Position numbers and translations under genes: made by a program. DNA of 64,000 bases from Apostichopus japonicus (Eukaryota > Echinodermata > Holothuroidea > Aspidochirotida > Stichopodidae). This document shows positions 19,924 through 55,400 of the stretch, piece by piece. The notes under the pieces are model-generated. The model saw only the letters and a program-made list of their open reading frames with translations, was not told where the DNA came from and searched no databases. Every line of letters starts with the position of its first letter. Position 1 is the stretch's first letter. The stretch spans positions 5,216,499 to 5,280,498 of the forward strand of contig NC_092565.1 in NCBI RefSeq assembly GCF_037975245.1, given 5' to 3'.

Positions 19924-20030
19924 AGTCAAGGGCGTAGGAACCGGGGGGCTGGGGGGCGCCAGCCCCCCAGTGAAAAATATGGGAGCGAAATGATACTTCC
20001 GCCCCCCCCCCCCGCTCCGCAAGTCAGAAA
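19924..20030. mobile_element. Left end of an hAT-like element with G/C palindrome
   Basis: CAAGGGCGTAGGAACCGGGG is followed by GGCTGGGGGGCGCCAGCCCC, a self-complementary stretch, and then poly-C. It has the same terminal style as the elements bounded by 8-bp duplications elsewhere here. No right end was found, so the limits are uncertain; the repeat array that follows may have inserted into it or be part of it. Confidence 0.45.
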
Positions 20031-20225
20031 ACCCCTTTTTCATTTCCAAATGAGAAAAAAAAATTCATTTGGTGCACCAAATTGCATTTAAGGCCAGGTG
20101 AAAATGCAAAATTCTTTACAAAATGGAGTGGGAGTTGAAGTGTGCTATATTGCAACAAATTGCATCTGAGGCCACCTGGAAATGCAAAAAAATTCCCCCT
20201 CCCCCTCCCCCCCTCCCCCTCCCCT

Positions 20226-22765
20226 TTGGAATTAGGTGTTGTGTGGGGCGTAGGAGGCAAAAAACCTGATTTTGCCTGTTTTTGCCAAACCTGTTTTTGC
20301 CAAAATTTACCTAAAAATCGACCCAAAATCGATTTCACCCAAATGACGTAACCGAGAGTAACCGATGCTCAGGAGCCCAAATCTGCAACTCCCAGGTCCA
20401 TATCTGCTTCCGTTCGGGAGATACGTGGTCCCAAACGACCCCCGATAGAAATACGTGTTCTTTATAAGTGTATAAGTGACAAATTTGGAAAACTCCCTCT
20501 TTTCAGCCCCCTCTCTTGTCCTCTCTAACAACCCCCATCGACATTAAAATTAGACGTGGAGTAGAAGACACCCTTGTCTTTCTTATACACCAATTTCGTG
20601 TCATTATCTGACCGGGAAAGGCTTTTGTCGCTCTGTTTGCAACTTCAGAGGAACAATAGAAAAGCGAAAAACATTTCGGGACAACAAAAGGTTTAAGACC
20701 TTTGTTCGTCGTAAAAGTTTTTCGCTCTTCCTTTTTTTTGAAGTGAAAAAACTTGTTGTCGCAAAAGCCATAAATGTGTATCTTTTCTGGTAGCTCGCGA
20801 CACGCTGATTGCGAATCTGAAGTTTATTTTGGAATTGGGTGTTGTGTGGGGGCGTAGGAGGCAAAATAACCTGATTTTGCCTGTTTTTGCCAAACCTGAT
20901 TTTGCCAAAATTTACCCCAAATCGACCCAAAATCCATTTCGCCCAAATGACGTAACCGGGGGTAACCGATGCCCAGGAGCCCAAATCTGCAACTCCCAGG
21001 TCCATATCTGCTTCCGTTCGGGAGATACGTGGTCCCAAAGTACAAGATAGAAATACGTGTTCTTTATAAGTGTACAAATTGGAAAACCGTTTATTTTCAG
21101 CCTCCTCTCTTGTCCTCTCTGAAACACCCATCGACATTAAAATTAGACGTGGAGTAGAAGACACCCTTGTCTTTGTTATACACCAATTTTCGTGTAATTA
21201 TCTGACCGGGAAAGGCTTTTGTCTATATGATTTCTATTTTTGTTCATTAATCATAAATCAGTTTTTTTTGCCCCCCCCCCCCCCCCTGCACGCCCACACA
21301 CAGCACCCAATTCCAAAATAAACTTCAGATTCGTAATCAGCGTGTCGCGAACTACCAGAAAAGATACACATTTATCGCCTTTGTGACAAAAAGTTTTTTC
21401 ACCTTTAAAAACCGTAAGCAGTTTTTTCCAAAATTTATGCCAAAATTTGACCCATTTATTCATAAATGTCAAGATAAACTCAAGATGACAAACAAAGGTT
21501 TGATTTGACTGCTTTGAAATCACGTATCACTGGCAAGATGCGTCGAGCGCCCTTTTATTTCGCTCAGTTTGCAACTTTTCAGATGAACAATAGAAAACGG
21601 AAAAACTTTTAGGGGCAACAAAAGATTTTAATCCTTTGTTCGTCGTAAAAGTTTTTCGGTCTTACTTTTTCAAGTTTGAGGTGCAAAAACTTGTTGTCGC
21701 AAAATCGATAAATGTGTATCTTTTCTGGTAGTTCGCGACACGCTGATTACGAATCTGAAGTTTATTTTGGAATTGGGTACCAAAAAGAGGTACTTTTTTA
21801 ACTTTTCAGACAAAAAATCTATTTTTGGCGCAAATAAAAATTGTCAAAAATTGACCCCAAATCGATTAAGCCCAAAAGACGTAATAGGGAGTAATCGATG
21901 CTCAGGAACCCAAATCTGCAACTCCCAGGTCCATATCTGCTTCCGTTCGGGAGATACGTGGTCCCAAAGTACAAGATAGAAATACGTGTTCTTTATAAGT
22001 GCACAATTTGGAAAACCCCTCTTTTCAGCCCACTCTCTTGTCCTCTCTGAAACACCCATCGACATTAAAATTAGACGTGGAGTAGAAGACACCCTTGTCT
22101 TTGTCATACACCAATTTCGTGTCATTATCTGACCGGGAAAGGCCTTTTTCGCTCTGTTTGCAACTTCAGAGGAACAATAGAAAAGCGAAAAACTTTTCGG
22201 GACAACAAAAGGTTTAAGACCTTTGTTCGTCGTAAAAGTTTTTCGCTCTTCCTTTTTTTGAGGTGAAAAAACTTGTTGTCGCAAAAGCGATAAATGTGTA
22301 TCTTTTCTGGTAGTTCGCGACACGCTGATTACGAATCTGAAGTTTATTTTGGAATTGGGTGTTGTGTGGGGGCGTAGGAGGCAAAAAACCTGATTTTGCC
22401 TGTTTTTGCCAAACCTGTTTTTGCCAAAATTGACCCAAAATCGATATCACCCAAATGACGTAACCGGGGGTAACTGATGCTCAGGAGCCCAAATCTGCAA
22501 CTCCCAGGTCCATATCTGCTTCCGTTCGGGAGATACGTGGTCCCAAAGGACCCGATAGAAATACGTGTTCTTTATAAGTGCACAATTTGGAAAACTCCCT
22601 TTTTAGCCCCCTCCCTTGTCCTCTCTGAAACACCCATCGACAGTAAATTTAGACGTGGAGTAGAAGACACCCTTGTCTTTCTTATACATCAATTTCGTGT
22701 AATTATGTGACTGGGAAAAGCTTTTTGTCTATATGATTTCTATTTTTTTCATAAATCATGTTTTT
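20226..22765. repeat. Complex array of a ~600-bp repeat with one inverted segment
   Basis: Units begin with a TTTGGAATTGGGTGTTGTGT-like string at about 20226, 20829, 21767 and 22350. Each contains the same ordered blocks: TTTTGCCAAACCTG, CAAATCTGCAACTCCCAGGT, GGGAGATACGTGGTCCCAAA, GACGTGGAGTAGAAGACACC and GTTCGTCGTAAAAGTTTTTC. Around 21306-21380 the block AATTCCAAAATAAACTTCAG is present in reverse orientation relative to its copy at 21705-21778. Open frames in the array (for example 20604-21164 on the -) recur in each unit without a start or any protein family resemblance, so I do not call them genes. Confidence 0.85.
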
Positions 22766-36360: not shown

Positions 36361-37009
36361 GTTTGCAGGATTCAAGAAATTCAGCAGGTTCGGAAGTATC
36401 CTAATTTCTAATTCCACTAGGCTAGTTCTTGCTGCAGTGTCAGCACTTGATTCTTGTTTGCAAAGGACTTGTTTTTAATATGACATGGACTGAACTACAA
36501 TTTAGTACAATGTATGAGTATCCTGCCAGTACAACCATCATATTCATACTACAGAATATGGTCGCAGTGAGTAATGTTATGCCAAAGTCACGCTATGTTG
36601 TTTAACTTTAATGGAAGGGCTTGTGAACACCAGCTATGCAAACATAACTTAACGTAAAAATGCTAGAATGTTACATTGCTCTGACTTGTCAGAGTCATGA
36701 AATGGATCAAGTTCAATAATGTTACTTAATGTTAGGCCTTGCGTTAGGACCGCAGCTGACCACGTATGATCTATTGAAATTACTAATGGATAGGCTAGCA
36801 TGAAGTTAGGCGTACACTGAGCAAATTAACGTTAGGTTCCATGGCCGTGAGTAGCAGTAAGAGACAAAGTAAAGAGATGAAAATGAAATTTGCCCAATAT
36901 AATGAATGCCTGCATATTTTAGAGTATATTCGCAACCGGTGGAATTCGAATCTCAGAATAGGGCTCCAAATTTGCGAAGTTGGTGACCATCCGGAACAGG
37001 GCACACTGT

Positions 37010-37195
37010 ACCGGTGTGAAGTTAGATACTTATTCCCCGTTCCTCGTTCGACATTCGCGAATGAGTAACTGCTACCGATTCAGTTACGTATTCGACAATG
37101 GTATCGACGTAACACCTCTGGCAAGACAAAAGCTTTCTTACAAGATGTTCAACATATGGTCGTGGAAAGAGGTTTATCTATGGCCCATGGGTCAT
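37010..37195 (+). repeat. Foldback outer terminal domain, left
   Basis: Non-tandem terminal segment with landmarks CCCCGTTCCTCGTTCGA, CGACGTAACACCTCTGGCAA and CAACATATGGTCGTGGAAAG. The same landmarks appear in the same order on the opposite strand at 46816-46630, with a few substitutions and short indels. Confidence 0.92.
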
Positions 37196-40100
37196 ATGAA
37201 CTCTAATAACTATGTAGAAGGGTACCATAATGCATCTTGCCCGGTCCAAATAGTTTTTGACCAACTAAAATGACCAGTACTTCATCAGCTCTTAAATTAA
37301 TGTAAAAAAATTACTTTACGCCCTAATCAAGACTAGCACGCCTTGGACCACCTTACCAAATGGGTCATATGAATTCTTAACACATTGTAGAAGGATACCA
37401 TAATGCGTCTTGCCCGGTCCAAAGAGTGCTTGACCAATTAAAATGACCATTAAATCAACATTTTTTTAAAATAAATGTAACGGGAACTGAAATAAAAACA
37501 TTTGGGCCCTAATCAAATCCAGCACGCCTTGGACCGCCCAACCAATGGGTCATGGGAAGTCTGAGGACCTTGTAGAAGGGTAACATAATGCGTCTTGCCC
37601 GGTCCAAAGAGTGCTTGACCAATTTAAATGACCATTAAATCATTACTTCTTCTATGAGTGTAACGGGACCACGAAAAAGCTTTGGGCCCTAATCCATGCA
37701 GCACGCCTTGGACCACCTAACCAATGGGTAACATTAACTCTAAGGACATTGTAGAAGAGTACCATAATGCGTCTTGCCCGGTCCAAAGCGTGCTTGACCA
37801 ATTAAACTGACCATGAAATCATTACTTCATCATCGAGTGTAACGGGACCACGAAAAAGCTTTGGGCCCTAATCCATGCAGCACGCTTTGGACCACCAAAC
37901 CGATGGGTAACATGTACTCTAAGGACATTGTAGAAGAGTACCGTAATGCGTCTTGCCCGGTCCAAAGAGTGCTTGACCAATTTAAATGACCACTAAATCA
38001 TTACTTCTTTAATGAGTGTAATTGGACCATGAAAAAGCTTTGGGCCCTTATCCATGCAGCACGCTTTGGACCACCTAACCAATGGGTAACATGTACTCTA
38101 AGGACTTTGTAAAAGAGTACCATAATGCGTCTTGTCCGGTCCAAAGCGTGCTTGACCAATTAAACTGACCATTAAATCATTACTTCATCATCGAGTGTAA
38201 CGGGACCACGAAAAAGCTTTGGGCCCTAATCCATGCAGCACGCTTTGGACCACCAAACCGATGGTTAACATGAACTCTAAGGACATTGTAGAAGAGTACC
38301 ATAATGCGTCTTGCCCGGTCCAAAGCGTGCTTGACCAATTAAACTGACCATTAAATCATTACTTCATCATCGAGTGTAACGGGACCACGAAAAAGCTTTG
38401 GGCCCTAATCCATGCAGCACGCTTTGGACCACCAAACCGATGGTTAACATGAACTCTAAGGACATTGTAGAAGAGTACCATAATGCGTCTTGCCCGGTCC
38501 AAAGCGTGCTTGACCAATTTAAATGACCACTAAATCATTACTTCTTTAATGAGTGAAACGGGACCACGAAAAGCTTTGGGCCCTAATCCATGCAGCACGC
38601 TTTGGACCACCTAACCAATGGGTAATATAAACTCTAAGGACATTGTAGAAGAGTACCATAATGCGTCTTGCCCGGTCCAAAGAGTGCTTGACCAATTTAA
38701 ATGACCACTAAATCATTACTTCTTCAATGAGTGTAATTGGACCATGAAAAAGCTTTGGGCCCTAATCCATGCAGCACGCCTTGGACCACCTAACCAATGG
38801 GTAACATGTACTCTAAGGACATTGTAAAAGAGTACCATAATGCGTCTTGCCCGGTCCAAAGAGTGCTTGACCAATTTAAATGACCACTAAATCATTACTT
38901 CTTTAATGAGTGTAATTTGACCATGAAAAAGCTTTGGGCCCTAATCCATGCAGCACGCTTTGGACCACCTAACCAATGGGTAACATGTACTCTAAGGACA
39001 TTGTAAAAGAGTACCATAATGCGTCTTGCCCGGTCCAAAGCGTGCTTGACCATTTTAAATGACCACTAAATCATTACTTCTTTAATGAGTGTAATTGGAC
39101 CATGAAAAAGCTTTGGGCCCTAATCCATGCAGCACGCTTTGGACCACCTAACCAATCAGTAACATGTACTCTAAGGACATTGTAGAAGATTACCATAATG
39201 CGTCTTGCCCGGTCCAAAGCGTGCTTGACCAATTAAACTGACCATTAAATCATTACTTCATCATCGAGTGTAACGGGACCACGAAAAAGCTTTGGGCCTT
39301 TATCCATGCAGCACGCCTTGGACCACCTAACCAATGGGTAACATGTACTCTAAGGACATTGTAGAAGAGTACCGTAATGCGTCTTGCCCGGTCCAAAGAG
39401 TGCTTGACCAATTTAAATGACCACTAAATCATTACTTCTTTAATGAGTGTAATTGGACCATGAAAAAGCTTTGGGCCCTTATCCATGCAGCACGCTTTGG
39501 ACCACCTAACCAATGGGTAACATGTACTCTAAGGACTTTGTAAAAGAGTACCATAATGCGTCTTGCCCGGTCCAAAGCGTGCTTGACCAATTAAACTGAC
39601 CATTAAATCATTACTTCATCATCGAGTGTAACGGGACCACGAAAAAGCTTTGGGCCCTAATCCATGCAGCACGCTTTGGACCACCAAACCGATGGTTAAC
39701 ATGAACTCTAAGGACATTGTAGAAGAGTACCATAATGCGTCTTGCCCGGTCCAAAGCGTGCTTGACCAATTAAACTGACCATTAAATCATTACTTCATCA
39801 TCGAGTGTAACGGGACCACGAAAAAGCTTTGGGCCCTAATCCATGCAGCACGCTTTGGACCACCAAACCGATGGTTAACATGAACTCTAAGGACATTGTA
39901 GAAGAGTACCATAATGCGTCTTGCCCGGTCCAAAGCGTGCTTGACCAATTTAAATGACCACTAAATCATTACTTCTTTAATGAGTGAAACGGGACCACGA
40001 AAAGCTTTGGGCCCTAATCCATGCAGCACGCTTTGGACCACCTAACCAATGGGTAATATAAACTCTAAGGACATTGTAGAAGAGTACCATAATGCGTCTT

Positions 40101-40700
40101 GCCCGGTCCAAAGAGTGCTTGACCAATTTAAATGACCACTAAATCATTACTTCTTCAATGAGTGTAATTGGACCATGAAAAAGCTTTGGGCCCTAATCCA
40201 TGCAGCACGCTTTGGACCACCTAACCAATGGGTAACATGTACTCTAAGGACATTGTAAAAGAGTACCATAATGCGTCTTGCCCGGTCCAAAGAGTGCTTG
40301 ACCAATTTAAATGACCACTAAATCATTACTTCTTTAATGAGTGTAATTTGACCATGAAAAAGCTTTGGGCCCTAATCCATGCAGCACGCTTTGGACCACC
40401 TAACCAATGGGTAACATGTACTCTAAGGACATTGTAAAAGAGTACCATAATGCGTCTTGCCCGGTCCAAAGCGTGCTTGACCAATTTAAATGACCACTAA
40501 ATCATTGCTTCTTTAATGAGTGAAAAGGGACCACGAAAAAGCTTTGGGCCCTAATCCAGACCAGAACGCCTTGGACCACCTAACCGATGGGTCATATGAT
40601 TTTTTAAGACAGTGTAGAAGAGTACCATAATACGTCTTGCCAGGTCCAAAGTGTGCTTGACCAATTTAAATGACCACTACATCATCACTTCTTAAATGAG
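37195..40700 (+). repeat. Foldback left arm: ~20 tandem units of ~180 bp
   Basis: The landmark CTTGCCCGGTCCAAAG recurs about every 180 bp from about 37237 to 40649. Each typical unit holds a 13-bp inverted pair CACGCTTTGGACC/GGTCCAAAGCGTG enclosing a 7-bp pair GTACTCT/AGAGTAC. The outermost and innermost units are the most diverged. A block of several units is repeated at an offset of 1431 bp (8 units). Confidence 0.93.
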
Positions 40701-42000
40701 TGTCCATCTCATATGTTATGTATCGTGCGTTTAGTGTCAACCGTTAGCATTACAAATTGCACTTGGGACCCTCAAGGAATGAAAAAGAGAGAACTCGTTT
40801 CAAGTGCATTCCAATTAATGGCAGAATGTCTATATACATGGCCAAATTCTGTCGGAAAGTTTTTACAATTTAAAAAAGCCTCTTAATGACTTCCGAATTC
40901 ATCGATATGTTAGCATATAACACTTTAACTTACTCAAATCACTTACGAAATTTCAGCCTAATCAAAAGGGAAAAATTGCAATGTGGCAGATATTTGAACA
41001 CGATGGCATAAAGCGACAGCATCTTTCTATGGCTGTAGCAAGGCCGTAGCAAGGCTGTAGCAGGCTTGTAGCAGGCTTGCACTGTCATGATAGCCCAATG
41101 AAGCTTATGAAGCTTACAGCCGGAGAAACAATCAAAGAAATAAACCATCCCCTATATATATAGGCCTACCAAGTACCATGGTCCATGAATTAATGGTACA
41201 TGCAGTAACGTTCAAACATTGAACAATATCACTTTAACTCTCCTAACGTGGGTCAGAGACATTCGTAGTAGGAAAGATATTCCGATATTTCATTCATTTG
41301 GGAATACAAATGCAAAAAAGCAGTTAAACTGTCAACATGCTGCAGATTATTTCAGTTATCTATCAATTTTAATGGTTCGACGCAAGGGAGCAATCACGCT
41401 ATGATAAATATGAACTCTCAGCCTTTTAAAGGTATTCCATGGACGTTAAATGACGGTAGGCAGTCAGCTCGTACATCGGTATCAATTAGTTCGAGCCTAA
41501 TGTTCAAGCGCTCTTTTACGAGAGAAAACTTCTAGGAAACATCCTGAATGAATCATTCAATTACAATCAGAACGCATGGTCCTTTATTCCGCTCCTTCAA
41601 ATTTATCTCATGAAGTATTGAGTAATAGTGTATGGAACATCTTTGCACATAGATTGGTAAAAGTGTATCAATTCTACCAGATTAAAGTAATTTGGCATGA
41701 AAATTTTTCTTCTGCAAGTACATTTCAATCCAATCAGAGAATAAATGGGGAGTGGTGGGGGGGGGGGGGGTGGATATTAAGCATGTAATATTTCTCTTGA
41801 CTTCTATACTTCCATAATTGACTCAGCATATAGCCTAATTGATATTTACCGAAGAATTAATACATTAAATACAATTGTAAGTGATTAGAAAGTGTATTTT
41901 TGACTTAAATTAACAAACGCGAAATTGACCTTAAATCTAGCACTTTTGCTAATGGATTGAATGTGTTTTGTGTATTGTGTAAACTTTGTATAGCTAGATA
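40700..42000. other. Foldback central domain, left part
   Basis: Single-copy-looking AT-rich DNA with a small GCTGTAGCAAGGC direct repeat near 41030-41080. No coding sequence is recognisable. Confidence 0.5.
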
Positions 42001-43311
42001 CAGGGACGTAGCTAATGCATGATGATTGGGGGTTTAGTGGCTGAAATTCCAACTGGATGGGTTTTGGAGCCAGAAAATTCCGACTGCTGCCTTGTACCCC
42101 CCCCCCCCCCCCGCACTATACTCGTCAACGATACGGTCAGTGTCAGTCAGACACCCTATCTTTCGCGACTGCACTTTTGTTCCAAACTTTTCTCGGTACA
42201 TTTGTACCACTGGCCCTCACTTTACAAACTTATCAATCACTCTGGTTAAGCGAGTAAGCAACTGAGTACAAGTTATCTGCTTGATAAGCTACATAGACTA
42301 CTGACTAAAAAAGCTATGTTAATGTAACAAAGGGGAAACTTTTTTTCGAAAATTATATTCGACGACATAGTGAATTACCCAAAAATACAGTGCTTTTTCC
42401 TAGCGGGCTTAATATTATTTTCTTGGGGGTGGGGGTGGGGCTATTTATCACTCACATGAATAAAAAAAAAACATTGTTCACTTCATTCCAACTGAGCATT
42501 TGGAATGATGTGAACAATTAAACATTTTGCAGAAAAATGTTGAGTTGACGTTATACGATAAGTTGTCAATTAAACATTTTGCAGAAATTTTTTCAATTGC
42601 TCAATTGGAATGAAGTAAACAATTGAACATTTTGCCAAAAATGTCCAATTGACGAGATAAGATAAGTTGTCAATTAAACATTTCTCAGAAAAGTTTTTCA
42701 ATTGTTCTTATGGAATGAAGTAAACAAATGAACATTTTGCAGCAAAAAATGACTAATTGACGAGATTTGATTAGTTTTCAATTAAACATTTTTCACAAAA
42801 TTGTTCAATTACTCATTTAAAGCAAGTAAGCAATGCAACATTTTTCTGTTTTTTGATAACATTTTATCTTGTTATCTAAACAATTTACAGAAAAATTTCA
42901 CCTTATGGAGCAAAGTTTTTCTTATGTTGATGGCATTTTTAAGCTTCCGTAGATTAGCATTGAGCGTTTTAATAGTATATGTTGTGCAGAAGTTCTATTA
43001 GGCATTTTTTTTTAGAGTATTCAAAATCATACGAAGTTTTGTATGGTGGAGTATAAAGATCGCGACATACAATTTCTCATTGTGACAAGGAAATCGTAGC
43101 AAATATGACTGATTCAAGGTCAATTTTGACCGAAAATTTTAGGTCACTACAAGAATATTTGAAAATTCGAGTGCGCCAGTCGGAAAAATTCGAGTGCGAC
43201 AGTCGGAAATTCCGACTGTCGCACAAAAATTTTCCAACTTTCGTCAGTTTTACCAAGATTGGGGGGGGGGGGGGGATGAGACACCCCACACCCCCACTAG
43301 CGACGTCCTTG
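42001..43311. mobile_element. Nested hAT-like non-autonomous element
   Basis: The left end CAGGGACGTAGCTAATG and the right end CACTAGCGACGTCCTTG (reverse complement CAAGGACGTCGCTAGTG) form imperfect terminal inverted repeats in the hAT style. An 8-bp flank GCTAGATA (41993-42000) pairs with GCTAGATT (43312-43319), one mismatch, matching hAT target duplications. The interior has a poly-C tract near 42097, a poly-G tract near 43261, and three ~120-bp tandem units at 42470-42830 with CAATTAAACATTTTGCAGAA. No transposase frame is present. Confidence 0.8.
42470..42835. repeat. ~120-bp tandem repeat inside the nested element
   Basis: About three units carry TGAACATTTTGC, AATTGACGAGAT and TGGAATGAAGTAAACAA in the same order, with substitutions. 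Confidence 0.75.
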
Positions 43312-43319
43312 GCTAGATT

Positions 43320-44150
43320 ATGGACGTTATAATTAATAATTAGGTAGAACTGAATGAAAGGAAATCAACTAAAAAGTCACACTAACTCTGGTCTATGTTT
43401 AGTTGGAATAAACCCAGTGAGACTTTTTATGGTGGATTTGCCTTCTACACTCCAATAGAAACTTTCTATTGAAAAATCGCTAAGAGAAAGAACAAGCACA
43501 TGCATGGGAACACGATAAAATCAAAATGCATAGATTGGCACTATAGGGTAACTTGGATGGTTCATTACCAACTATGGCTAATGGAGATCATAAATAAATC
43601 AGAAAGGGATTTCGGCATAAAATATATGTCTGGGTAGACCTATTTCACTTGAAGACTATTTTGCTAAATAAACTATTAAAGTCAGTTTATCTCCGCTTGA
43701 CCCGAGATGACTGATTGTCTGTTTATAGCTCCATGGTCAGCTCTACAATGTAGCAGTGGAATCTTTCAGAATCTACGATGGGGGTTAAAGCGTTCAAAAC
43801 CACTTTCAAGAAGAGAGGCAAGAACACTTCTTTGTTCTTTGAATCTGTAAATATGTGAAGGGTTGACGGGTGAAATGAATGAAAGAAATAAAATTTAGTT
43901 CTATAAACGAATAATTAAAACAAAAACGTTTTCAGTTCGTTGCCAGTCTACAGAAATCACTTCATTCTGAAAATGTTGTTGCGCTAAGGGCCCTCCCTCC
44001 CCCCCCCCCAAAAAAGAAGAAGAGAGTGCGCGTGTGTTTCTCCGGAATGGGAAGGAAACTTTGTATGCTGATGATTGTAAAGCACCAATAAGCATTAAAC
44101 TTGCGAGCCAAAGGTGTTGCTTTTGTTTTGTATCACCACACTGGTACAGA
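43320..44150. other. Foldback central domain, right part, with a possible retroelement remnant
   Basis: At 43753-43858 (+) the frame reads QWNLSESTMGVKAFKTTFKK then RGKNTSLFF to a TGA. This loosely resembles the LWNSLPxSIRxxxSxxxFKxxLKTxLF end of non-LTR reverse transcriptase frames, followed by a short A-rich tail. The match is weak, there are no upstream reverse transcriptase motifs, and it could be chance. Confidence 0.3.
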
Positions 44151-46640
44151 CGTAGAGTTGAAATTCAAAAAAGAAGATATTGATGAATCTACTGGATAAT
44201 GATTGTGCATTAGTCGTTTGTATTGGTCAAATACTCTTTGGACCGGGTAAGACGCATTATGGAACTCTTCAACAATGTCCTTAGAATTCATAAGACCAAT
44301 TGGTTGGGTGGTCCGAGGCGTGCTGGTCTTCACAAGGGCCTAAACATATTTGCAGGTCCATTAACATTCATTAACGAAGTAATGATTTAGTGGTCATTTA
44401 AATTGGTCAAGCACTCTTTGGACCGGGCAAGACGCATCATGGTACCGTTCTACAATGTTCTTGGACTTCCTGTGACCTATTGGTTAGGTGGTCCAAGGCG
44501 TGCTGGTCTTGATTGGGGCCCAAAGCTTTTTCGTGGTCCCTTTACACTCATTGAAGAAGTAATGATTTAAAGGTCAGTTTAATTGGTCAAGCACGCTTTG
44601 GACCGGGCAAGACGCATTATGGTACTATTCTACAATGTCTTTAGAGTACATTTTACCGATTGGTTAGGTGGTCCAAAGCGTGCTGCATGGATGAGGGCCC
44701 AAAGCTTTTTCGTGGTCCCGTTACACTCGATGATGTAGTAATGATTTAGTGGTCATTTAAATTGGTCAAGCACTCTTTGGACCGGGCAAGACGCATTATG
44801 GTACTCTTCTACAATGTCCTTAGAGTACATGTTACCGATTGGTTAGGTGGTCCAAACCGTGCTGCATGGATTAGGGCCCAAAGTTTTTTCGCGGTCCCTT
44901 TGCACGCATTTAATAAGTAATGATTTAAAGGTCAGTTTAATTGGTCAAGCACGCTTTGGACCGGGCAAGACGCATTATGGTACTATTCTACAATGTCTTT
45001 AGAGTACATTTTACCCATTGGTTAGGTGGTCCAAAGCGTGCTGCATGGATTAGGGCCCAAAGTTTTTTCGTGGTCCCGTTACACTCGATGATGTAGTAAT
45101 GATTTAGTGGTCATTTAAATTGGTCAAGCACGCTTTGGACCGGGCAAGACGCATTATGGTACTCTTCTACAATGTCCTTAGAGTACATGTTACCCATTGG
45201 TTAGGTGGTCCAAAGCGTGCTGCATGGATTAGGGCCCAAAGCTTTTTCATGGTCCAATTACACTCATTAAAGAAGTAATGATTTAGTGGTCATTTAAATT
45301 GGTCAAGCACTCTCTGGACCGGGCAAGACGCATTATGGTACTCTTTTACATTGTCCTTAGAGTACATGCTACCCATTGGTTAGGTGGTCCAAAGCGTGCT
45401 GCATGGATGAGGGCCCAAAGCTTTTTCGTGGTCCCGTTACACTCGATGATGTAGTAATGATTTAGTGGTCATTTAAATTGGTCAAGCACGCTTTGGACCG
45501 GGCAAGACGCATTATGGTACTCTTCTACAATGTCCTTAGAGTACATGTTACCCATTGGTTAGGTGGTCCAAGGCGTGCTGCATGAATTAGGGCTCAAAGC
45601 TTTTTCATGGTCCCGTTACACTCGATGATGAAGTAATGATTTAATGGTCAGTTTAATTGGTCAAGCACGCTTTGGACCGGGCAAGACGCATTATGGTACT
45701 CTTTTACAATGTCCTTAGAGTACATGTTACCGATTGGTTAGGTGGTCCAAAGCGTGCTGCATGGATTAGGGCCCAAAGCTTTTTCATGGTCCAATTACAC
45801 TCATTGAAGAAGTAATGATTTAGTGGTCATTTAAATTGGTCAAGCACTCTTTGGACCGGGCAAGACGCATTATGGTACTCTTCTACAATGTCCTTAGAGT
45901 TTATATTACCCATTGGTTAGGTGGTCCAAGGCGTGCTGCATGGATTAGGGCCCAAAGCTTTTTCATGGTCCCGTTACACTCATTGATGAAGTAGTAATTT
46001 AGTGGTCATTTTAATTGGTCAAGCACTCTTTGGACCGGGCAAGACGCATTATGGTACTCTTCTACAATGTCCTTAGAGTTAATGTTACCCATTGGTTAGG
46101 TGGTCCAAGGCGTGCTGCATGGATTAGGGCCCAAAGCTTTTTCGTGGTCCCGTTACACTCATTAAAGAAGTAATGATTTAGTGGTCATTTATATTGGTCA
46201 AGCACGCTTTGGACCGAGCAAGACGCATTATGTTACCCTTCTACAAGGTCCTTAGACTTCCTATGACCCATTGGTTAGGCGGTCCAAGACGTGCTGGTTT
46301 TGATTAGGGCCCAAATGTTTTTATTTCAGTTCCCGTTACATTTATTTACAAAAATGTTGATTTAATGGTAATTTTAATTGGTCAAACACTCTTTGGACCG
46401 GGCAAGACGCATTATGGTATCCTTCTACAATGTGTTAAGAATTCATATGACCCATTGGTAAGGTGGTCCAAGGCGTGCTAGTCTTGATTAGGGCCTAAAG
46501 TGATTTTTTCTGGTCCAGTTACATTAATTTAAGAACTGATGAAGTACTGGTCATTTTAGTTGGTCAAGAACTATTTGGACCGGGCAAGATGCATTATGGT
46601 ACCCTTCCACATAGTCGTTACAGTTCATATGACCCATGGG
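44150..46640 (-). repeat. Foldback right arm: ~14 tandem units, inverted
   Basis: The landmark GGACCGGGCAAGACGC recurs about every 180 bp from about 44240 to 46578, the reverse complement of the left-arm unit. As on the left, units nearest the outer end and the centre are most diverged (for example GGACCGAGCAAG near 46215). Confidence 0.93.
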
Positions 46641-46816
46641 CCATTGATAAAACCTCTTTCCACGACCATATGTTGAACATCTTGTAAGAAGCTTTTGTCT
46701 TGCCAGAGGTGTTACGTCGATATCATTGTCGAATACGTAGCTGAATAGCTAGCTCAGTTACTCATACGCGAATATCGAACGAGGAACGGGGAATAAGTAT
46801 CTAACTTCACACCGGT
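46630..46816 (-). repeat. Foldback outer terminal domain, right
   Basis: Reverse complement of the left outer domain, ending at ACCGGT (46811-46816), then the duplicated target GCACACTGT. The terminal hexamer ACCGGT is itself palindromic. Confidence 0.92.
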
Positions 46817-47109
46817 GCACACTGTTTTCATACTGTTGATAAGTAACCAATTTCCAAAGTGTAATCATAGCCATAAACATAGCTAGTGCAGTTCTAATCG
46901 TCTCGCTGTCAGGTCCCTTTCGGCACCTTTCACATCTCGGTAAGGATGAATATTTATGGTGGAGAGAATTGGGGGAATGAAGAGAGGATGTCGTAAGGGT
47001 CAAACTCTGTTCATGTTCCCCTAATGCAGACGAACTCTAAAATGAAATAAATACAATCCACCTAAAATCGGTATCAACCGTCGAATAAATTTACTTCAGT
47101 CAATGAACA

Positions 47110-52400: not shown

Positions 52401-55400
52401 TGAACGTAATTTAGTTTAAGGAATTAGTATAGTATTTCAAATGGTTACAGTGGTGTGCGCAAGGTAACGGGGGGGGGGGGGGAGAGAAAGGGGGACGTGG
52501 CGTCGTCGATCGGGAGAAAATGCGTCAGTTATTTTTTTGCACTGATATGGGTGTACCCCCCCCCCCCCCACACACACACACCCATCGCTTCCCCTATTTT
52601 CAACTCACTCACAGTACTGATTAGCACAATCTTGCAATTAGAGCTAAGCTGTAGTCCCTAAATATGTCTCAGGATACATCGATTTTTACAGGAAGGGAAC
52701 CCTACATGCATGGGAGCCGGCTTAAATTCAACAAACCCAGGGCCGCACCCCTCCTTTATAACTCCTTGATACGCCTCTGGCCCTTCTATAAAGGTCCATT
52801 CACCTTCTTAAATCAGTCGGGTGTAAATGTTGCGAAATTTGGTCCCGCCTTTAAAATCCTGCATAATTTACTGAGGCTATATATAAAGTTGAGAGTCTTT
52901 ATTGTTTTTTCATCAGGGCAATGATTGCAATGGTCACGGTACTCACGCCGGTGCAATTATCGTAAGTAAGAGGTACGGGATCGCCCACAATGCAACGATT
53001 CACGGTGTCAGGGTAGTCGGTTGCAGGGGCCACACGACAATTTCGCTCGCCTGTAGAGGTACGCAAGTCGGGATAAGTACAGTAACATATATGGTACATT
53101 TCTGCAAGACGGTGTTCAATTCAGTATCCTGGCTGCGTGCATGTTTATTCCCCCCAAAAAACGAATAAAACAAGTGGTAGTATAAATCGCGATCTTTAAT
53201 CGTGAAATCATAAATACAGTAAAATGGGGCCAGCACCACTTATACAGGTTAATGTAAATGAACATATACTTGTGTGTATACAAAAGAAATCCATGCGTGC
53301 TCCGCCGGACGGGGGGGGGGGGATTATATGTGGCGGGATATTGGTAGAGTGTGTTATGCCTAGGTCAATGCTTACAACGATTTTCGTCCCAAGGTCCTTG
53401 ACAATACACGCCTAGCTAATTTCCCCTTCCTGTTACCATGGGGTAACTATACTTCCTTTTTTATAGGGGATCAAATGCTTTACTAGACTGGGCAGGCAGA
53501 ACCTACTGTCTATAAAGAAAAAAAAATCATTATATAAAAATATAAAAAATAATAATTCTGGCAATTTCCTCCTTGGGAGGCAGGGGGAGACACATATTTG
53601 GAAGCCCCCATCGTTACACCAATGCCTGTTACCCTTCTCCCAAAGATCTCATTAGAATGGCAGATTTGGCGTTGCCACTAATCCTCTCAACTTTCAACTT
53701 AATTAAAGCATACTAACCATGATCCTTGTGTCCACTTTAAATTACCCATCACAATCTTCATTCATGCGCCGACGCCTTCAACAGGTATAAACTACGTAGC
53801 TAGGAAGCGCCGTTTGCCTTGCGTAATGCAAATCGGATCGATCACAGAAGAAGGGATATCACCTAGTCTGGATGAAGGCGTTCGTGTCATCTCGAAACTA
53901 GGATGTGTCGTCGTGGTACCAGCGGGCAACAACGGCAACGATGCCTGTTTGCAATCTCCATCCAGATCAGAGGAGGTAATTTCAAGTCTATACCGTACTT
54001 TAAATCATGTGTTTCAATTTCATAATTTCCAAGTTTACGATCACAAAACGACTGAACCCTGCATATCAAAGAATCAAAAGGATACCTTTTCTTTTTAAAG
54101 AAAAGTCATCCGAGAGAAAGTTAAGAACCCGGGCACGAAAACCAGACAACTTCATCCCCTTTCAACCACAATCCCTTTTAATTCACCAAGGTTCTATTAT
54201 ACGTAGGTTGTTGTACTGTACTAGTATGCGGTGTAAGGCACAGCCGCCTGCGTAGTATGGCATGCAGTCCAATATGCTTTAAGACTGCAGTGTGGAATGC
54301 CCACATATCCATTTGAAAGGGAAATATTTAGATCATTGCAAGCCATTCAACCAGCTAGTATTAATCAAATGAGTCCGAATCATTGTCACCGTAGCCCGGT
54401 TATATTTAACAAGTCAAAATGACGTTTTGTTTCACAATGAAAATACTATATCCATTAGTGAAAAATTACCGTCTGAAAATATTGTTAGGACTATTCGGTT
54501 TATAGGAAGGACGAAGTATTAGTTAAACCAAAAGCTGAATTGATGAGGTATTCACAGAGAAACCATAAAATTATCTCACCGATAATAGAGGGAAATTTGC
54601 CAAAGCAAGCCTTTGGCACCCAGTTCAGTAGGTTCATAACTGTTAAAATTGTAAGCTTTTGTCCAGGCTGTTTCTTCTTCTTCTGTGAGTGCGTGTATTT
54701 TTTTTGGGGGGGGGGGGGGGGGGTGACCTACAAACCCGGAGACTAAACAATTGAATCGCTTTAGTACCCGTCCTGTTAAACTCAATCCTTTTATAGTACT
54801 TCCTTCCTAACATTCAATTATATCCTATTTCATCTCAAACAAATCATTTTGTATGTCTTCTGCAATCAATAATTTTCAGGTGATTACTGTTGGGGCGTTG
54901 GCACACTGGGATTACATCCACCAGAATTCAAATTGGGGAAAGTGCGTAGATATCTTTGCTCCAGGACAAAACGTCAGGAGTGCGTGGTACATCTCGACTG
55001 TTGATAACGACACCCTTTCGGGAACGTCGATGTCAGCCAGTCACGTGACAGGTACAGTGCTTCCTTTAATAATACCGCATTTAACACACAGAGGTGTATC
55101 CAGCTCAATTCTAGATCCATCATACAGTTTTAACTGTGGGAGGTCAACAAGAACCAATGAACCAATGATTTCTTTCATCCCATCCCATCCCATCCCATGC
55201 AATCCACAACACTCCTCCCCCTTATGGCAAGCCGTTTTAAGATTTAACTCCCAATTCTTCTTAAGTGCAATTACAGTCTACTTATGTCGAATTCACTTCA
55301 ACTTAAGTGAAATAGAACTCGACTTGAGTAAAATGTATTCCACTTAAGTGAAATAGCATTTCACTTAAGTAGAATACAAATGTTCTATTTCAGTATAATA

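Follow-up and report, generated by a model that had tools for sequence, protein, structure and literature searches.

Within the window, the 64,000-nucleotide stretch of Apostichopus japonicus DNA analysed here, an inverted-arm element occupies positions 37010–46816 and is placed between two copies of the 9-bp sequence GCACACTGT, the left one at 37001–37009 and the right one at 46817–46825. Host exons flank this foldback region on either side, one with an Aldolase_II/adducin domain (PF00596) at 1120–1419 and one of the subtilase type (PF00082) at 54811–55347; at positions 20000–22500, segments are repeated locally, short frames resembling one another occur on both strands, and the 15-mer CCTGTTTTTGCCAAA recurs.

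The two copies of GCACACTGT directly abut the inverted ends, both of which start with ACCGGTGTGAAG; by simple arithmetic, a 9-bp match would arise by chance at about 1 in 262,000 per site. The element begins with a left outer domain (37010–37187, plus strand), the terminal inverted repeat proper, which starts with the palindrome ACCGGT, and continues with a left arm array of 20 units of ~179 bp (37187–40703, plus strand) and a central loop of ~3.5 kb that has no long open frame (40704–44221, plus strand). Nested within the loop is a hAT-like nonautonomous element of the form CAGGGACG...CGTCCTTG (42001–43311, plus strand). There follow a right arm array (44222–46637, minus strand), whose 14 units of ~179 bp run opposite to those of the left arm, and a right outer domain (46639–46816, minus strand) that is ~93% identical to the left one. 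Array limits and the period of 179 bp were taken from Tandem Repeats Finder, and the unit numbers were obtained by anchor counting. The two ends are identical at 42 of 42 terminal base pairs and 92.9% identical over the outer 180 bp, and the inverted arms pair along stretches of as much as 1,446 bp at 94% identity. With the arms and centre as blastn queries, the remaining window gave no match at E ≤ 1e-3. The initial annotation had described a complete element with a perfect 9-bp duplication at 37001–46825 and inverted arms built of ~180-bp tandem units; the former was borne out to the base and the latter with a period of 179 bp and 20 + 14 units. Its account of a foldback structure thus stood, but it had overlooked the hAT-like element nested in the 3.5-kb centre.

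Copies of the element across the genome

The genome searched comprises 671,581,487 bp on 35 contigs. The exact 30-bp terminus occurs in it 120 times (63 forward, 57 reverse), as opposed to 0 occurrences of the reversed-pattern control, and 66 of the 100 listed termini (of 120) form 33 inward-facing pairs with a spacing of 3.1–16.8 kb. A 300-bp query from the left end gave 522 candidate places, the best 40 of which were scored and proved 95–100% identical. We read 18 copies, namely the window copy and 17 further places; 13 were complete within the stretch read and display the structure of the foldback class, i.e., long inverted arms with tandem repeats around a unique middle. The other five (L018, L019, L022, L025 and L027) were kept out of the duplication count, being one-armed or having an end that was lost or lay beyond the stretch read. 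All 13 complete copies (12 plus that of the window) are flanked by perfect 9-bp duplications, no two of which are alike. The 9-bp target site duplication expected of the foldback class was hence present in 13 of the 14 copies tested, the exception being a terminus pair on C17 that is discussed below. In an alignment of 22 ends from 11 copies, the terminal 26 bp are invariant, and changes are few out to ~60 bp. The target duplications seemed to favour certain bases at their ends, an impression that was dropped as strand-arbitrary. According to the initial annotation, further copies with different 9-bp duplications would speak for a foldback-type transposon, and absence of the terminal 190 bp from the rest of the genome would speak against it; 13 copies with mutually different duplications and many further copies of the terminal 190 bp were found.

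Arms made purely of tandem repeats are prone to mis-assembly, and the structure could in principle be an inverted satellite array or an assembly artefact instead of a transposon. We regard this as highly improbable and have rejected it, for each of the 13 copies has its own perfect duplication at a place unlinked to the others, and the presence of the arms at many such loci makes a single-locus assembly artefact unlikely. Also, among about 150 of 547 unit matches listed, no free array was seen: by inspection, clusters of units always hold a listed terminus or loop as well. Moreover, the published assembly of this species, which matches the one used here, is described in its report as built from PacBio HiFi reads (671.60 Mb in 34 scaffolds; PMC10344927). 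A scan of viral contigs with a 20-bp piece of the unit gave no match.

Two places deserve separate mention. The foldback ends at C8:39674549 and C8:39675155 stand back to back at a spacing of 0.6 kb and enclose a third, partial outer domain, an arrangement that reflects either two side-by-side insertions or a rearrangement. The longest listed terminus pair, C15:5692748–5709563, spans 16.8 kb and contains a match to the family loop near its left end.

Fourteen loops were aligned; 13 of them show a pairwise divergence of 0.17–2.06%, and that of L015 differs by ~12%. As 13 loops are so little apart, a recent amplification of the family from closely related sources is probable. In line with the annotation's statement that a transposase is missing, the loop of the window copy has no frame above 95 aa, and none of the 10 loop frames scanned against Pfam (of 24 frames of ≥50 aa) scored over the cut-off; the loop appears to be noncoding passenger DNA. 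The hAT-like element at 42001–43311 is flanked by GCTAGATA and GCTAGATT, which match at 7 of 8 positions. In the L015 loop, the site corresponding to this insertion point is uninterrupted, and a related hAT-like element resides elsewhere in that loop within a perfect 8-bp duplication (GCCGCATG), representing an independent insertion. The nested element of the window is an older resident of the foldback loop. Among the 40 candidates scored (of 2166) for this element, the matches at C9:28789199 and C9:28861776 stop exactly at its borders (query positions 2–1312), as expected of free copies, which these two apparently are.

Composition and turnover of the arms

Unit numbers per arm vary widely among the 13 copies, left arms having 6–29 and right arms 2–23 units. 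L017 and L020 have loops only 0.17% apart, left arms of 29 versus 12 units and right arms of 17 versus 23 units; different unit numbers on near-identical loops indicate that arm length changes far faster than the loop. A comparison of units across 12 copies (24 arms, one of them slightly cut) revealed that the outermost units are position-specific: first units from different arms are 92.3% alike, whereas their similarity to interior units is 75.2%. The innermost units are likewise kept on each side (left 90.6%, right 91.5%), with a similarity of 71.4% between left and right. Interior units turn over between copies, such that the edges of the arms are conserved and the middle is variable. Traces of such changes are visible in individual arrays. 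In the left arm of the window copy, a block of 6 units is repeated 8 units away, units 5–10 and 13–18 being near-identical, and the right arms of the window copy and L016 differ by roughly a single inserted and a single changed unit.

The simplest mechanism for this turnover would be unequal exchange or slippage with fixed edges, by which the unit block probably changes. Copying from arm to arm is a further process that we infer for at least one copy, C20:17691042, where the outer domains are 100% identical and the arms are strongly homogenised, with 35.6% near-identical left–right unit pairs versus 5.5% with other copies. Arm-to-arm homogenisation as a family-wide phenomenon was considered and dropped, the permutation test over 11 copies (L015 and L024 left out) having given p = 0.14.

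Candidate transposase and probable mode of transposition

The initial annotation had further predicted that an autonomous partner should exist in this genome. A candidate was encountered inside the terminus pair C17:9340120–9353625, which spans 13.5 kb and has units inward of each end; the 3.4 kb of its centre that were read, in three parts, do not match the standard loop. Within this pair lies a 456-aa open frame on the minus strand (C17:9347425–9348792). A protein search with this frame retrieved 19 relatives at E ≤ 0.001, among them a Triplophysa dalaica protein that is named in its source '120.7 kDa protein in NOF-FB transposable element' (32% identity over 453 aligned positions) and an Astyanax protein (P0005) with PHD (PF00628) and Ulp1 (PF02902) domains. 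The sequence blocks LYLDATG, TDFSW, CAAH and ENWF are common to the frame and to the 7 of 19 relatives aligned, where these are covered, with single changes in some; going by sequence, we read the blocks as a putative DDE-type catalytic core of the hAT/MULE kind. The frame itself gave nothing over the cut-off against Pfam, no PF10551 match at E ≤ 1, and no relative among PDB sequences at E ≤ 1.

Only two close NOF-like places were found genome-wide, the C17 frame and C16:5229853–5231199, which is 94% identical to it. The C16 copy lies 8.0 kb from the terminus C16:5221871 and beside a family loop (C16:5223766–5225819). The other 31 NOF-like matches (≤52%, some of them pieces of one place) all lie 10 kb or more from the 110 terminus places considered, i.e., 100 of the 120 exact 30-bp termini plus 10 from the 300-bp left-end search, whose 10-kb surroundings cover ~0.33% of the genome. 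One weaker NOF-like match is on C22, where no terminus is found among the 100 of 120 listed. Since it was a look inside a terminus pair that led to the C17 frame, only the C16 locus counts as independent evidence for the association. The frames inside the C17 pair and near the C16 terminus are good candidates for the predicted partner, but the C17 pair is without a matching target duplication (GTAAGTACA versus ATGAATAGT), so its ends could stem from two insertions or from a rearranged copy. In addition, comparison with relatives indicates an apparent frame change near residue 449 of the C17 frame, and one in-frame stop interrupts the C16 copy; neither copy therefore looks intact as assembled. 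Elsewhere on C17, at around 16–25 Mb, transposase matches of several kinds are frequent (MULE, Merlin, P-type, some NOF-like), perhaps marking a repeat-rich region.

We interpret the family as a nonautonomous Foldback-type DNA transposon that is moved in trans by a transposase most probably of the NOF (FB-NOF/Rehavkus) kind, and assign this reading a probability of roughly 0.7. According to this model, the enzyme supplied in trans would bind the conserved outer ends, cut the element out and insert it at 9-bp staggered cuts, the latter step being suggested by the 13 different perfect duplications; spread would have been by cut-and-paste and recent. The arms combine a conserved outer domain and position-specific edge units with a central block of 179-bp units that is rapidly expanded, contracted and reshuffled. 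The 179-bp units may serve as extra transposase-binding sites, as has been proposed for Galileo and Tetris (PMC4079207). One may tentatively go further and picture a recent, NOF/Rehavkus-driven echinoderm foldback system whose arms keep an adjustable, rapidly evolving count of transposase-binding units, with selection at transposition fixing the outer end and the edge units while unit number runs free; we consider this picture possible yet rather doubtful.

Other transposases have to be weighed against the NOF-like candidate. For the MULE superfamily, 9-bp duplications are given as typical (PMC3169594, PMC6446971), and a canonical Mutator-like transposase (PF10551), e.g., of the Phantom/FLYWCH type and with a different internal sequence, might move the foldback family, in which case the NOF-like gene would be unrelated to it. 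Such genes are present: the genome contains 38 PF10551 matches, including one 503-aa frame with a MULE domain and FLYWCH below the cut-off, and two MULE places are located ~12 kb from a terminus. However, terminus and units were absent from all 30 MULE loci (of 38) that were read with 1.5-kb flanks, and the 33 terminus pairs (from 100 listed of 120 termini) enclose none of the 38 matches, leaving a canonical MULE as an unlikely driver. An inverted-repeat search at five MULE loci detected no pair that would flank the gene in the manner of terminal repeats. A PF03108 search was without match, as was its control, and is thus uninformative. As an aside, L042 and L045 (C9:36353144 and C9:36441554) belong to a different MULE family with minisatellite arrays of 30- to 332-bp periods beside the transposase, and L039, a relative of this MULE family, combines ALS2CR8 and MULE domains.

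P/Galileo elements produce 7–8-bp duplications, whereas every duplicated copy of the present family has 9-bp duplications, not 7 or 8. This bears on the idea of a foldback-shaped element from another superfamily (P/Galileo, Merlin or hAT), which draws on reports that the foldback shape arose independently in several superfamilies, Galileo being P-type (PMC4079207, PMC3169594). Potential sources of such transposases exist in the genome, as we found 45 P-like (PF21787) and 11 Merlin-like matches and at least 150 hAT matches (150 of 633 candidates scored). Nevertheless, judging by their coordinates, none of the P-type (PF21787), Merlin (PF12762) or 150 scored hAT (PF05699) matches lies inside the 33 listed terminus pairs, and we view a driver of this sort as quite improbable, more so than a canonical MULE.

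Foldback elements are often orphans, found apart from the transposase that moves them. The system described here opens the questions of what mobilises foldbacks outside flies, and whether the tandem units of the arms act as binding sites, with mobility depending on how many there are. The coexistence of near-identical clean copies, an arm-length series and a NOF-like transposase near the same ends makes both directly testable. Inverted arms of this kind can also give rise to rearrangements and make assembly harder, a point of relevance to Apostichopus japonicus as an aquaculture species.

Relation to known foldback systems

Drosophila FB elements have long inverted arms of tandem units and 9-bp duplications, and their copies are mostly noncoding; a NOF-type transposase is carried by the rare larger form, FB-NOF. 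The sea cucumber family is similar to FB in arms, duplications and mostly noncoding copies, and a candidate NOF homologue was found here. It differs from FB in its 179-bp units and in arms of up to 29 units (~5.2 kb), and the likeness is one of architecture. Also in contrast to FB-NOF, the NOF-like frame seen between termini is in the C17 pair, which lacks a matching duplication. On the whole, membership of the sea cucumber family in FB-NOF is probable. The TU elements of sea urchins have 8-bp duplications and short units; they represent another case of tandem-unit inverted arms in an echinoderm, again an architectural likeness only, and they differ from the present family with its 9-bp duplications.

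Rehavkus elements are MULE-related, with 9-bp duplications, a minisatellite before the 3' terminal repeat and a transposase group with a PHD finger, and in the account consulted they are described from arthropods and annelids only (PMC6446971). The family studied here shares with Rehavkus the 9-bp duplication and the minisatellite adjoining the terminal repeat, and the Astyanax homologue of the candidate gene carries PHD plus Ulp1. Unlike in Rehavkus, both arms are arrays, and the part of the C17 gene that was read contains no PHD finger.

Nearest in layout is Tetris of Drosophila virilis, reported as a flanking domain, an array of ~220-bp units that change in copy number and a noncoding middle, with 8–10-bp duplications (PMC4079207). 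Flanking domain, unit arrays of changing number and noncoding middle all recur in the sea cucumber family. For Tetris, the same report counts 3 complete copies, each with few units, finds no partner and describes the seeding of free satellite arrays (PMC4079207); here, we find 13 complete copies, longer arrays and a candidate partner, and no free array among about 150 of 547 unit matches listed. Tm1 and Muta1, in turn, are portrayed as foldback-type Phantom MULEs having composite ends with 12–14-bp tandem units, 8–9-bp duplications and many nonautonomous copies, with a palindromic terminal motif in the case of Muta1 (PMC3169594, PMC5225508). Composite tandem-repeat ends, numerous nonautonomous copies and, as in Muta1, a palindromic terminal motif are found here as well, but the units are 179 bp in size, and a MULE/FLYWCH transposase was not found inside the listed terminus pairs.

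Our search of the literature on Apostichopus japonicus and sea cucumbers yielded no report of a foldback family. The sea cucumber family is unusual for its long arms, its many clean copies and the series of arm lengths on near-identical loops.
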